From the NCBI RefSeq assembly GCF_900105125.1, contig NZ_LT629750.1, positions 2,170,001 through 2,234,000 on the forward strand: a stretch of DNA of 64,000 bases. The letters are read 5' to 3'. Shown piece after piece: positions 56,888 to 61,828 of this stretch (its first letter is position 1; the number at the start of each line of letters is the position of its first letter). The translations under genes were made by a program, and so were the position numbers. The notes under the pieces were generated by a model that saw only the letters and a list, made by a program, of their open reading frames with translations, was not told where the DNA came from and did not search any database. The stretch is from Bradyrhizobium canariense (lineage in GTDB: Bacteria > Pseudomonadota > Alphaproteobacteria > Rhizobiales > Xanthobacteraceae).

Positions 56888-57508
56888 CTAATTGCGATGA
56901 CCCCCACGCGCCCCCTTCTTCGTGGCGACAAGGGGTAAAAAAATTGTGTCGAGTATCTCGGCTATGACGGCTCTTGGAACTGGTTTATGCGTCATGAAAA
57001 CTTCGTGACGCCCGAGGTCCAGTGGCAGTGACGCTATTCGTTTCGTCAGCTTGCTCGGATCGATCTCTCCACGCCGGACGCCGCGCTGAAGCACCTCTTC
57101 GACCGTCCGGCGACCTTCGAGCTTGCTTCTCAGGTCAGCCAGGCTGGAGTTTGTCTCCACGAAGTAGTCGCGCATACTGAACAAGACTTTGGTGATTGTG
57201 CTCGCGCCCCGCTCCGAGAACTTCTGCAAAAGCATCGCGAGTTCATCGCGTACGCTTCCAAGGTCGGGAACAGAGACGGGATTCTTCTGGATGTAATGGC
57301 CGATTGCGGCAACGGCGAATTCGGCACGAGTTGGCCAACGGCGAGACAGCACGGGCCGACTGGTGCCGGCTCGTTTGGCGACTGCCTCCATCGTGAAGTT
57401 GACATAGCCGTGGTCGAGCAGTTCAGCCCAGGCAGTCTCAAGGATTGCCTCCTCGAGCGCGCTTCCACGTCGCCTTATGGCTTTTTTCACCGTCATCGCG
57501 TCACCCAT
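56888..57508 (-). CDS. TetR-family transcriptional regulator
   Basis: About 206 residues. The frame is much longer upstream, but the family fold begins near MTVKKAIRRRGSALEEAILETAW. The ATG at 57508 (MGDAM) or 57496 (MTVKK) are the realistic starts. The helix-turn-helix is in NFTMEAVAKRAGTSRPVLSRRWPTRAEF in part. It is divergent from the 2-hydroxyacid dehydrogenase, and the space between holds two identical inverted repeats, with a third copy before the FAD monooxygenase at 60012. It is therefore the likely repressor of both. Confidence 0.87.
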   Translation of the reverse strand: MGDAMTVKKAIRRRGSALEEAILETAWAELLDHGYVNFTMEAVAKRAGTSRPVLSRRWPTRAEFAVAAIGHYIQKNPVSVPDLGSVRDELAMLLQKFSERGASTITKVLFSMRDYFVETNSSLADLRSKLEGRRTVEEVLQRGVRRGEIDPSKLTKRIASLPLDLGRHEVFMTHKPVPRAVIAEILDTIFLPLVATKKGARGGHRN

Positions 57509-57511
57509 TTC

Positions 57512-57535
57512 ATAAGATGCAATAATGAATCTTAT
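57512..57535. promoter_or_regulatory. Candidate TetR operator O1 (ATAAGAT-N10-ATCTTAT)
   Basis: First of three identical 7+10+7 inverted repeats. It starts four bases upstream of the TetR start codon and ends at the -35 element (TTGCCA, 57535-57540) of the divergent promoter, so it can repress the regulator's own gene. Confidence 0.7.
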
Positions 57536-57563
57536 TGCCAGCCCGCCGCATCTAAGATATAAG
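57535..57563 (+). promoter_or_regulatory. Promoter of the 2-hydroxyacid dehydrogenase gene
   Basis: TTGCCA (57535-57540), 17-base spacer, TATAAG (57558-57563). The -10 element overlaps operator O2 and the -35 touches operator O1, so both operators flank it. Confidence 0.5.
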
Positions 57564-57582
57564 ATATATGCGTGAATCTTAT
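57559..57582. promoter_or_regulatory. Candidate TetR operator O2 (ATAAGAT-N10-ATCTTAT)
   Basis: Second copy, 47 bases from O1. It overlaps the -10 of the rightward promoter and an in-frame GTG at 57572, which argues that the true start of the dehydrogenase is the ATG at 57599. Confidence 0.7.
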
Positions 57583-57598
57583 CAGCGAGCTCAATGAT

Positions 57599-58633
57599 AT
57601 GCCAATAACACCCGTGCCAACGAACAAGAAGGCGACGGGTAACCACACGCCCAAGGTGGCGATACTCGACGACTACGCTCGCGTTGCCCTCGACCTCGCC
57701 GACTGGTCGCCCGTGCAGAACAGGGCGGACGTAACGGTTTTTGACCGTCACCTCTCCGAGGACGAGGCAGTCGAGGCGCTGCAGTCGTTCGACGTGGTTT
57801 GCACCCTCCGCGAGCGCATGGCCTTCCCGCGCACGCTGATCGAACGGCTGCCGAACCTGAAACTAATGACAATCGTCGGCATGAGCCTGACGAACCTGGA
57901 CATGGCCGCTGCCAGCGAATGCGGCGTCCTTGTCGCACACCCGAACTTCGCCAACCCTGGATTCGCCGCCGCAGGCAACGGCGTCCCGGAACTGGCATGG
58001 GGGTTGATGATGGCGACGGTGCGCAACCTGGCCGAAGAACATCGGCGCATGCGCGAGGGCGGGTGGCAGGCAACCGTAGGTATGACCCTGCACGGCAAGA
58101 CGCTCGGCCTTCTCGGTCTCGGCAGGCTCGGCAAACGGATGAACGAATACGCGAAGGTATTCGGGATGAAGGTGATCGCCTGGAGCCAGAATCTTACCGA
58201 CGAGGCCGCAGCGACGGCGGGCGTGCGCCGGGTCGAGAAAGAGACCCTCTTCAAGGAAGCCGACGTGATCTCCATTGGATTGGTGCTGTCGGAACGCACG
58301 CGAGGTCTCGTGGCTGCACCCGAACTGGCCCTGATGAAGCCAAGCGCCTATTTGATCAACATCTCCAGAGGCCCGATCGTCGATGAGGCGGCTCTTATCG
58401 CTGCGCTGCGAGCCGGACGGATCGCCGGGGCTGGACTGGACGTCTATGACGTCGAACCGCTGCCATCAGATCATCCGTTGCGGTCTCTGCCGAACGTGAC
58501 GCTGTCTCCCCATCTTGGGTACGTCACCCGCGAACTCCTGAGCGTCGTCTATTCAGACACCGTAGAAGCCGTGGCGGCTTGGCTGGATGGGAAGCCCGTT
58601 CGGATTGTGAACCGCGAGGCGCTGCAGCATTAA
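57599..58633 (+). CDS. D-2-hydroxyacid dehydrogenase family protein (NAD-dependent)
   Basis: 344 residues from the ATG at 57599; an upstream GTG lies inside operator O2. Rossmann motif GLLGLGRLGKRMNE near 165-178. Catalytic Arg in NISRGPIVDE, Glu in YDVEPLP and His in LSPHLGY are complete. The substrate is unknown. It is under the same predicted TetR operator as the FAD monooxygenase downstream, so the two probably act in one response. Confidence 0.87.
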   Translation: MPITPVPTNKKATGNHTPKVAILDDYARVALDLADWSPVQNRADVTVFDRHLSEDEAVEALQSFDVVCTLRERMAFPRTLIERLPNLKLMTIVGMSLTNLDMAAASECGVLVAHPNFANPGFAAAGNGVPELAWGLMMATVRNLAEEHRRMREGGWQATVGMTLHGKTLGLLGLGRLGKRMNEYAKVFGMKVIAWSQNLTDEAAATAGVRRVEKETLFKEADVISIGLVLSERTRGLVAAPELALMKPSAYLINISRGPIVDEAALIAALRAGRIAGAGLDVYDVEPLPSDHPLRSLPNVTLSPHLGYVTRELLSVVYSDTVEAVAAWLDGKPVRIVNREALQH

Positions 58634-58788
58634 GCTTCCGCAGGTTAGAGAGCGCTTCCGGTGATCGGGCCCAGCCACGGCTCGCACACGATCATCCACG
58701 CTGCCTCCAACCCTGCGACCGCCGGCGGAGCGGATCCCGTAAGGTTCAAGCGGATAGCGCCCCGGTTCGTCAGGCTCAACTCCCTGCG

Positions 58789-60012
58789 TCAGCTATAGTC
58801 AGGCAAGGTGAGCGCGCTATGGACCTGCCGCCTGTGGACCTGCCGCGCGTCGTCTTTCCGGAAGATCTTGCCGATCGGCTCCTCTGCCATCTTTCGGAGC
58901 ATCTCGTTGCGGGCTTCGAGTTCCTGCTGAGTGTCGGGAATCATAATGGACTTGCCCGTTTCGACCAGAGCCTGGTTCATCTCGGCAAAGGGCCGCATCA
59001 GTTTTTCGTATGCCTCGAAGGCAGAGCTGTAGTCAGGCTTGGTCGCGATCTCGCCGGCCAGGATGTAGGCGCCGACAAGCGCTATGCTCGATCCCTGACC
59101 CGACAGGAAAGAGGTGGCGTGCGTGGCGTCCCCGGCGAGCACGATCCGTCTCCTCGACCAGGTCGGCATGTGGATCTGGCTGACGGCGTCGAAGAACAGG
59201 TCCTCGGCCTTCCGCATGTCTTCGACCAGTTGCGGTACGATCCACCCGTCGACACCTTCGAACATACTGGCGGTCAGCTTCCGCTTATCCTCTTCGGCGA
59301 CGCTCTTCCGGAACGGCGAAGTGGGATACCTGAAGACCAGGAACGCATAGACCTGGCCGCCGTCATTGGTCGCATAGACCACCGCATTCTTCCCCGGAAG
59401 CGTATAGGCCAGGGCGCCGCGGTCGAGGCCGAAAGTGTTTGGGACCGTGAACCCGGCGAAGCAGAAGCCGATGTATTTTTCGAATTGGGACTCGTGGCCG
59501 AAGATCAGGGATCGCGTGTTCGAATGCAGGCCATCCGCACCGATGACAATGTCGTAGGTTCCGATGTCTCCGCTGACAAATGTCACGTCTACGCGGTCCG
59601 CGTGCTCGTCCAGAGAGGCGATGGAGTCGTTGAACTTGTAGTCCGCCTTGTCCTTCGTGGCGGCGTACAGGATCGTTGCGATGTCGCCCCGGCGGATCTC
59701 GACGTCCGTGCCCCTGACGCCTCCCGTGATCGCTTCCGGATCGATCTTCGCGATCACCGCGCCGTGCTCGTCCACGAAGGCGATGCTCTGGGAGTCGACG
59801 TGCGCCGCGCGCATCTGCGGGTAGAGGCCCATTCGCTCCACCGCATCGAGCGCGGTGCCGCGGATGTCGATCGGATAGCCGCCGCCGCGCAACGATGATG
59901 ACTTCTCCACGACCGTTGTGTTGATGCCGTAGCGGGTCAGCCAGAAGGCCAGAGCAGGTCCTGCTATACTCGCACCGGATATGAGGACGTTTTTGACTGC
60001 TCTCTCGCCCAT
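58789..60012 (-). CDS. FAD-dependent monooxygenase (group A flavoprotein, TetX/PgaE-like)
   Basis: 407 residues. FAD motif VLISGASIAGPALAFWLTRYG near 8-28 (Ser in place of one Gly), GADGLHSNTRSLIFG near 160, GDATHATSFLSGQGSSIALVGAYILAGEI in part near 290. It hydroxylates an aromatic or polyketide-like ring, or inactivates such compounds. The C-terminus lacks the thioredoxin-like domain seen in the 44641 enzyme. Convergent with the dehydrogenase gene; its promoter carries the third TetR operator, about 160 bases upstream. Confidence 0.85.
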   Translation of the reverse strand: MGERAVKNVLISGASIAGPALAFWLTRYGINTTVVEKSSSLRGGGYPIDIRGTALDAVERMGLYPQMRAAHVDSQSIAFVDEHGAVIAKIDPEAITGGVRGTDVEIRRGDIATILYAATKDKADYKFNDSIASLDEHADRVDVTFVSGDIGTYDIVIGADGLHSNTRSLIFGHESQFEKYIGFCFAGFTVPNTFGLDRGALAYTLPGKNAVVYATNDGGQVYAFLVFRYPTSPFRKSVAEEDKRKLTASMFEGVDGWIVPQLVEDMRKAEDLFFDAVSQIHMPTWSRRRIVLAGDATHATSFLSGQGSSIALVGAYILAGEIATKPDYSSAFEAYEKLMRPFAEMNQALVETGKSIMIPDTQQELEARNEMLRKMAEEPIGKIFRKDDARQVHRRQVHSALTLPDYS

Positions 60013-60560
60013 CGCCTGAATTCCTAAATAGTATTATTGGGTCACGCCTCTGACCGCTTATCTGCAACTGCCCCGCGCCCCGCCTTGTCGCAGGATGTCA
60101 GGGTCCGGCGATCTGCTGACTGCGGGTGGATGACATCCAAAACCCTACGGCCGGCCCCCAAGCCTTGTCAATAAGATACATGGACATATCTTATCTAGGA
60201 GGACGCAATATCAGCTTGATGTCACCCTGTTCGAGCGCGACGGCCGGACAGAAATCTCTCGACACAGCTCGGTACATTGTCGATGAAACCGAATCCATCG
60301 TCGCGCGTCTGAAGACTCGCTCCCGAGCGCGAGCACTGTAAGACGGACCGCAAGCCGGCCGTCGGTCCCCAGCCCGTTCTCCTACCGGAGATCGCTATTT
60401 GGTCAGCGGCGGCCGGCTGGGTCGCCGGTTGGCGTGCCAAGCGTGAGTATGCGGTTCACGCGGGCCGGAGCTTCGATGACGGAAATAATTGATGCCGGCC
60501 TCCGCCAGCCAGCATCTTGAATCACAAACCAGTCAGATCAGGAATTCTCAAATGATTCAG
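60013..60560. other. Intergenic region with operator O3; no gene recognised
   Basis: About 550 bases between the FAD monooxygenase start and the trans-sulfuration enzyme stop. It contains the third TetR operator and, on its right side, an AGGAGG at 60197-60202 that is not followed by a start codon at normal distance. A 53-codon frame from 60181 overlaps the operator and resembles nothing I know. Confidence 0.4.
60171..60194. promoter_or_regulatory. Candidate TetR operator O3 (ATAAGAT-N10-ATCTTAT)
   Basis: Third exact copy of the half-sites and spacer length found at 57512 and 57559. On the minus strand a consensus -35 (TTGACA, 60171-60166) begins at its edge, with a weak -10 about 18 bases further, pointing toward the FAD monooxygenase gene. 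This links that gene to the TetR at 56888-57508. Confidence 0.7.
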
Positions 60561-61751
60561 TCAATCAATGAAACGCTCTGGCCGCTCAGCCCGGCGACCG
60601 ACGGCCAGGAGGCTCCGATCAAGATCTGCGATCAGATCGGCCTCCGCCTCAAGGCCGATCGAGAGCCGCAGAAGGCTGTCATTGATGCCAGCGGCGCGGC
60701 GCGCCTCCTCTCCCATGCCGGAATGGGTCATCGTTGCCGGATGAGCGACCAAACTTTCGACGCCCCCGAGTGATTCCGCCAGCGTGAAAACCTCCACGGC
60801 CTCCACGAAACGGCGCACATGCTCGACGCCTCCCACCAATTCGAAACTGAGCATCGCGCCGAATCCCGCTTGCTGCTTTTTGGCGAGGGCATGGCCAGGG
60901 TGCGACGCAAGCCCGGGATAGTGGACAACGCGCACCAGCGGATGCTGATCCAGGAACGCCGCTACGGCGGCGGCGTTCTTCTGCTGGTGATCAATCCGGG
61001 GAAACAATGTCCTGAGCCCCCGCAGGGTCAGATAGGCGTCGAAGGGAGAGCCCGTGACTCCCGTGAGGTTAGCCCAGTCAGCAAGGGCCTCCGCATCGGC
61101 TTTATCTGCTGCGATCACGACGCCGCCGACCACATCCGAATGGCCGTTGAGGTATTTTGTGGTCGAATGGATGACGAAATCGGCACCGAGCGCGATCGGC
61201 CGTTGGAGCGCCGGCGACAGGAACGTGTTGTCGACCACGACCCTGGCGCCGACGGATTTGGCCTGCGCCGCGATCGCACGAACGTCGACGACGCGTATAA
61301 GCGGATTGCTCGGCGTTTCAATCAGGATGAGCGACGGCGACCTTGTCAGGGCCTTCGAAAGCGCCACGTCGTCTCCTTGATCGACATAGGCGACGTCGAA
61401 TTGTCGGCGATCGCGCCGAGCGGCGAGCAAGCGGTAGGTGCCGCCATAGCAGTCGTGCGGCGCGATGATGAGATCGTCGCGGCCCAATTGCGAGAGTACA
61501 AGATCGATCGCCGCCATTCCCGATGTCGTCACCACCGCGCCGGCGCCGCCCTCCAGCTTGGCAAGCGTATCGGCCAGCACGTCCCGGCCGGGATTGGCGG
61601 TGCGGGTGTATTCATAGCTCCCCGGCCGCTCAAAACCAGAAAACGCAAAGGTGCTGGTGAGATAGATGGGCGGCACGACTGCGCCGAATGTCGGGTCGGC
61701 GGCAATGCCGTTGGACGCAGCAACAGTCTGAGGATGTCTGGGTTTCGGCAT
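60561..61751 (-). CDS. Cystathionine gamma-synthase/gamma-lyase-type PLP enzyme
   Basis: 396 residues from the ATG at 61751, with GGAGG about ten bases upstream (an in-frame TTG lies too close to that site). PLP lysine K199 in HSTTKYLNGHSD, Asp D174 in VVVDNTFLSP, and YEYTRTANPGRDVLADTLAKLE near 47-67 as in MetB-type enzymes. Could make cystathionine from an activated homoserine, or act as a gamma-lyase/O-acyl-homoserine sulfhydrylase. Near an SsuD-like monooxygenase that releases sulfite, a sulfur-assimilation role is plausible. Confidence 0.85.
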   Translation of the reverse strand: MPKPRHPQTVAASNGIAADPTFGAVVPPIYLTSTFAFSGFERPGSYEYTRTANPGRDVLADTLAKLEGGAGAVVTTSGMAAIDLVLSQLGRDDLIIAPHDCYGGTYRLLAARRDRRQFDVAYVDQGDDVALSKALTRSPSLILIETPSNPLIRVVDVRAIAAQAKSVGARVVVDNTFLSPALQRPIALGADFVIHSTTKYLNGHSDVVGGVVIAADKADAEALADWANLTGVTGSPFDAYLTLRGLRTLFPRIDHQQKNAAAVAAFLDQHPLVRVVHYPGLASHPGHALAKKQQAGFGAMLSFELVGGVEHVRRFVEAVEVFTLAESLGGVESLVAHPATMTHSGMGEEARRAAGINDSLLRLSIGLEAEADLIADLDRSLLAVGRRAERPERFID

Positions 61752-61828
61752 GAAGATCAAGCCTCCGACTTTAGATGTGCTTCGTGTACGAGGATGGCTC
61801 TCGCAGAGCGCAACACAATTGCGCTACG

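Follow-up and report, generated by a model that had tools for sequence, protein, structure and literature searches.

TetR/QacR-type local repressors join a helix-turn-helix (HTH) to a ligand domain and have palindromic operators at a divergent promoter, with their target next door. As given in the excerpted text of PMC9210681, two QacR dimers bind one 28-bp palindrome, and AtsR has a different, 12-bp operator. The estrogen-dependent repressor EdcR of Caenibius tardaugens, with a PF16859 domain, is assigned a 24-bp palindrome that overlaps the -10 boxes of several promoters within a single degradation cluster (excerpt of PMC8700777). Here we analyzed a stretch of 64,000 bases of Bradyrhizobium canariense (contig NZ_LT629750.1, positions 2,170,001 to 2,234,000), referred to below as the window, in which an organization resembling both types was found. 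It comprises a TetR-family repressor gene with the same C-terminal Pfam domain as EdcR, a divergent D-2-hydroxyacid dehydrogenase gene, a class A flavin adenine dinucleotide (FAD)-dependent monooxygenase gene, and three copies of one 24-bp palindrome (operators O1, O2 and O3). The repressor very probably acts on these operators to control itself, the dehydrogenase and the monooxygenase locally, and is released by a small molecule.

The sequence ATAAGAT-N10-ATCTTAT occurs exactly at 57512-57535 (O1, on the repressor side), 57559-57582 (O2, on the enzyme side) and 60171-60194 (O3, a single site at the putative monooxygenase promoter), as the first-pass annotation of this DNA had noted. The genome-wide search which it proposed revealed no fourth exact copy in the 7,841,944-base genome (one contig), so that all exact sites are at this locus. 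Given the base composition of the window, one would expect approximately 0.003 exact copies in a genome and about 1e-6 within 2.7 kb, in agreement with the earlier view that a chance origin is very unlikely. Of all exact 7+7 inverted repeats with spacers of 0-20, ATAAGAT with a spacer of 10 alone occurs more than once in the window. The next-best genome match to the 24-bp motif has one mismatch (C1:3155314) and lies within a response-regulator-like reading frame, named by eye. Since the motif is common at up to three mismatches (80 places genome-wide vs. 34 for the reversed control), we place weight on exact and near-exact sites only, and weak matches elsewhere mean little. A search of the genome for further regulon members with a refined pattern gave none beyond O1-O3 and four places at three mismatches (seven in total, vs. 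four for the reversed control), while a stricter consensus scan matched O1 alone.

The repressor gene (56888..57508, minus strand) encodes a protein with a TetR_N HTH domain (PF00440; 39.3 bits, cut-off 24) and a C-terminal ligand domain of the TetR_C_11 type (PF16859; 49.7 bits, cut-off 32). Its likely start is at 57496, since most alignments to homologues begin at about residue 5-12. O1 and O2 provide palindromes of operator type at its own, divergent promoter. The nearest relative found is encoded by the acidobacterium Granulicella sp. S156 (81% identity), the sole match in the species collection, where the search reaches close relatives only. This genome contains two exact operators 46 bases apart (O1 and O2 are offset by 47 bases), located between the repressor and a divergent monooxygenase, and no further exact copy. 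At an E-value of 1e-25, relatives of the repressor were found in 11 of 265 genus genomes, and at 1e-35 in 4 of 341 genomes of the family sample and 3 of 398 of the phylum sample (the window included in each count), as well as in 3 of 250 of the Granulicella family sample (S156 included). Sixty plasmid records have a match at 1e-5, and 11 of them were examined.

The first-pass annotation had also suggested comparing the intergenic DNA of relatives. In 32 loci (the window and 31 relatives, designated by L numbers), we searched a region of 245 bases comprising the repressor start and the DNA upstream of it for the two arms of the motif, and the same kind of operator was found beside homologous repressors across phyla. 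A site with at most three mismatches in 14 is present in 28 of the 32 loci, which cover four phyla; 22 of these sites have a spacer of 10 and six a spacer of 9, while spacers of 8, 11 and 12 were found in one, zero and one loci, respectively. The corresponding counts for 1102 further stretches of this length in the relatives' loci were six (spacer 10), one (spacer 9) and two, one and zero (spacers 8, 11 and 12). Some of these background matches are probably real, since L047, L054 and L063 hold sites further off. At up to four mismatches, a second site accompanies the first in 24 of the 28 loci, the other four being L043, L046, L050 and L060, of which L060 lies at a contig end.

The ten-base spacer, previously written as N10, is not free in sequence. 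In 33 hand-picked spacer-10 sites, some of them near-identical, C9, A10, T15 and G16 are kept in 30, 27, 30 and 33 sites, respectively, even though the sites had been chosen without regard to these positions (the set leaves out sites of L044, L047, L048, L049 and L060, the L063 monooxygenase pair and the weaker partners of L052, L066 and L068). In consensus, the operator reads ATAAGATrCAtnnaTGyATCTTAT. The spacing class of the operator follows the tree of the repressor, with two changes over 30 labelled rows, whereas 500 shuffles gave three to six.

The operators also lie at recurring positions relative to promoter-like elements. The putative dehydrogenase promoter TTGCCA-N17-TATAAG is located at 57535..57563 (plus strand), such that the last base of O1 is the first T of its -35 box and its -10 box overlaps O2; relatives have a site equivalent to O1. 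This overlap, read directly from the sequence, agrees with the earlier description. Our consensus promoter scan does not list the promoter, because its rules require T as the last base of the -10 box. The scan gave two matches against 0.8 expected by shuffling, and one of them (minus strand, 57605-57576) is a weak candidate promoter for the repressor gene, with its -10 box likewise overlapping O2. On the monooxygenase side, a consensus TTGACA (60166..60171, minus strand; direct reading) abuts O3 as a putative -35 box, 158 bases before the monooxygenase ATG at 60012 rather than the 160 stated previously. The same junction is found in two relatives, L054 and L063: their monooxygenases are preceded by twin operators of their own, the first of which abuts TTGACA or TTGACC at the same offset as in O3. 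O3 is therefore best read, from this shared junction, as the first member of a twin pair of which the second is missing; a search for a decayed second operator beside O3 gave nothing convincing at the expected distance. Among the loci with two placed sites, 16 of 24 have a TTGACA-like hexamer (at least five positions of TTGACA) beginning between -6 and +7 around the end of the repressor-side operator, vs. 213 of 4800 in the control. The hexamer nearly always starts at -1 or -4 relative to this end. In 12 of these 16 loci, the second operator starts 22-24 bases from the start of the -35 box, which places it over the -10 box.

The genes are also linked beyond the window. The monooxygenase was found at an E-value of 1e-100 in 7 of 257 genus genomes at eight places (the window included), all within 1.3 kb of a repressor relative. 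The dehydrogenase was found at 1e-120 in three of the 257 genomes at three places (again with the window), each beside the repressor family. These counts are based on seven or eight first-look candidates scored per genome, so that unlinked copies could be missed. L051 and L053 contain the repressor, a divergent dehydrogenase and the monooxygenase in a row, while L063 has the dehydrogenase on one side and the monooxygenase on the other, each with twin sites. The window monooxygenase was matched in 15 of the 31 relatives' fetched stretches, including one truncated copy (L052); L044 and L049 contain an annotated FAD monooxygenase without a match to it. In L052 (4115-4862), the dehydrogenase and monooxygenase next to the repressor are truncated and run together, as after a deletion, with the repressor frame and an operator kept.

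Thus, the earlier proposal of a TetR regulon of regulator, dehydrogenase and monooxygenase is supported by sites that are unique in the genome and conserved in relatives, by a spacing that tracks the repressor tree, and by the resemblance of O3 to the sites of L054 and L063. We infer that the protein encoded at 56888-57508 binds the 24-bp palindrome and represses rather than activates. At the divergent promoter it would occupy both O1, which adjoins the dehydrogenase -35 box, and O2, which overlaps the -10 box, and would thereby shut off both the dehydrogenase and the repressor's own gene. On O3, flush with the monooxygenase -35 box, it would turn off the monooxygenase. The repressor may be released by a small hydrophobic molecule of soil or plant origin, probably aromatic or polyketide-like. 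The monooxygenase would then hydroxylate this molecule or a relative of it, and the dehydrogenase may act on a 2-keto/2-hydroxy product or supply redox balance.

Several observations weigh against this model or narrow it. The whole stretches of L045 and L065 lack a site with at most three mismatches, the sites of L047 and L054 do not immediately precede the repressor gene, and the weak repressor relatives L017-L020 (25-37% identity) have no such site with a spacer of 9 or 10. The six spacer-9 repressors are compatible with a single clade, but their monophyly is neither shown nor rejected (approximately unbiased test, p 0.34). Within the window, O2 and O3 each depart from the conserved inner CA/TG in one half. 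The target gene is not fixed, since several relatives carry other neighbors: a methyltransferase (L066), a PNPOx-like protein (L047), a major facilitator superfamily (MFS) transporter (L046) or a DUF3313 protein (L058, L059, L062 and L069). The many TetR-like proteins of the genus (7-46 first-look candidates per same-genus genome) would even allow a different regulator to bind the palindromes, given that the pairing of repressor and operator is read from sequence. We consider this scarcely credible, as the form and spacer class of the operator follow the phylogeny of this very repressor across phyla, and the only exact copies in the genome flank its gene cluster.

In an alternative reading, the repressor might control only itself and the dehydrogenase, with O3 being a relic of rearrangement or serving a rightward transcript, and the monooxygenase using another promoter. 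O3 is indeed single, the best -10 box after its TTGACA is poor, and the distance to the start codon is 158 bases. The promoter scan lists no monooxygenase promoter at this TTGACA, and its second match lies across O3 on the plus strand (60165-60192), directed away from the monooxygenase. Furthermore, the locus is rearranged relative to L051, L053 and L063. A relic, however, would be expected to decay, whereas both 7-base arms of O3 are perfect and adjoin a consensus TTGACA at the offset seen in L054 and L063, and this monooxygenase subfamily stands beside the repressor family in eight of the eight genus places found. We therefore regard control limited to the repressor and dehydrogenase as improbable, and retain all three genes as targets.

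The monooxygenase (58789..60012, minus strand; PF01494) is related to tetracycline destructases and to 6-hydroxynicotinate 3-monooxygenase, which raises the question of whether it inactivates tetracycline and the cassette is a tetracycline response. Its nearest solved chains are 5tul, 8twg and 5tue. Tet(55) and Tet(50) are among the closest structures, with 6-hydroxynicotinate 3-monooxygenase scoring between the destructases. In the excerpt of PMC10944477, two residues are reported to separate destructases from other monooxygenases; we found both in the window protein by reading its phmmer alignment to Tet(50) by hand. The same kind of reading showed that two of six further Tet(50)-sensitive positions, altered in inactive relatives according to that excerpt, differ in the window protein. 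The score against the curated destructase family NF033476 is 262.6 bits, below its cut-off of 550, and the scores for the best 25 of 51 NCBIfam families all stayed under the respective cut-offs. Because of this low score and the two differing positions, we do not file the protein as a destructase. Even among high-scoring destructase candidates, 14 of 50 were active (PMC10944477, same excerpt). A tetracycline response is thus very unlikely. As to the aromatic toxin or signal that the first-pass annotation proposed as a possibility, an aromatic or polyketide-like substrate, suggested by the subfamily, is a reasonable assumption but no more.

The dehydrogenase (57599..58633, plus strand) contains the NAD-binding and catalytic domains of its family, PF02826 (200.9 bits, cut-off 25.1) and PF00389 (47 bits, cut-off 24.6), as found in a Pfam search run without the first Met. 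Its likely start is 57599, while the frames of relatives begin further in. Against 21 NCBIfam families, its scores stayed below the respective cut-offs.

When the three proteins are each compared with their relatives, the cassette is a mosaic, with three different nearest relatives for the three genes. The repressor is nearest to that of Granulicella (80% protein identity, the next at 69%, eight compared; 83% of bases in the DNA vs. 68-70% for three others), and the tree support for this pairing (92/88) is just short of the strongest mark of the tool. The monooxygenase is nearest to that of L053 (78%, the next at 54%, support 100/100; this comparison excludes the truncated copy of L052, which has 72% over its part). 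The nearest dehydrogenase is that of L051 (87%, vs. 84% and 83%). In addition, the window dehydrogenase has a leader and first codons similar to the leader that follows the operator of the Granulicella monooxygenase, with a local score of 28, while the best of 2000 single-base shuffles reached 26. The dehydrogenase leaders of L063, L053 and L051 score 25, 16 and 15, via the dehydrogenase's own codons further in. This short alignment suggests a joining event that placed the dehydrogenase after the leader of a monooxygenase. Regulator and operator appear to move together as one module, while the target genes are exchanged. A fuller scenario, to which we give even chances, is that a cross-phylum repressor lineage carries a self-contained twin-operator cassette with a built-in promoter, which moves as a unit while its targets (monooxygenase, dehydrogenase, DUF3313, transporter) are swapped. 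The window dehydrogenase would then have taken over a monooxygenase's operator together with its leader and first codons, and the half-site spacing would have switched between 10 and 9 once or twice alongside the repressor. As a separate observation, the recurrence of DUF3313 beside the repressor family, also after the monooxygenase in L042, offers a possible lead to DUF3313 function.

To the right of O3, a cystathionine gamma-synthase gene (60561-61760; TIGR02080, 593.5 bits, cut-off 504.55) reads towards the cassette. No operator was found before it, the best match in 221 bases around its start having five mismatches. The 366 bases in between (60195-60560) contain no convincing gene but a short FAD-monooxygenase-like peptide, QYQLDVTLFERDG. 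A monooxygenase remnant with a QYQLDVTLFERDG-like peptide was considered here and rejected, as the tblastn matches listed for three queries were not significant (E 0.25-0.55). Elsewhere in the genome, C1:7013310, 7032086 and 7075655 (the first two being loci L009 and L010), within about 62 kb, share the pattern ATAAGGTTTT..AAACCTTAT, with an arm altered in one of them, and may represent another local operator family.

Among the titles listed in searches of the open-licence PubMed Central literature, we found no description of this operator or gene set. Unlike in the TetR/QacR type, the operators of the window family are usually twins framing a promoter, with a third at a distant gene, and the operator sequence differs. 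EdcR, compared here by domain and operator, differs from the window in its targets and in its proposed operator TnnCnnTACnAnTnGTAnnGnnA (excerpt of PMC8700777); by analogy with EdcR, repression in the window is expected to be relieved by a hydrophobic compound. Plasmid pairs of a TetR repressor and an FAD monooxygenase (Komagataeibacter, Deinococcus, Agrobacterium, Streptomyces) have a homologous repressor and related operators, with the repressor divergent from the monooxygenase or from an MFS transporter plus monooxygenase. In contrast to the window, their repressors are 44-50% identical, no dehydrogenase was matched in those stretches, the S. goshikiensis-type monooxygenases (L044, L049) have no tblastn match to that of the window, and there is no third operator at another gene, save a two-mismatch match inside the L041 repressor gene. 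The type 2 tetracycline destructases, such as Tet(55) and Tet(50), are related class A FAD monooxygenases, a likeness known from sequence, with the window protein falling below their curated cut-off. The locus offers a testable, sequence-specific operator code for a repressor lineage in four phyla, and it would place a destructase-like monooxygenase subfamily and a dehydrogenase under one inducer, so that the repressor could serve as a handle to find the substrate. It also provides a natural series in which to study changes of half-site spacing in a TetR protein and the gain of new targets by a regulatory module. The kind of system is thus familiar, and what this locus adds to it is the cross-phylum operator, the promoter within an operator pair, the spacing switch and the swapping of parts.

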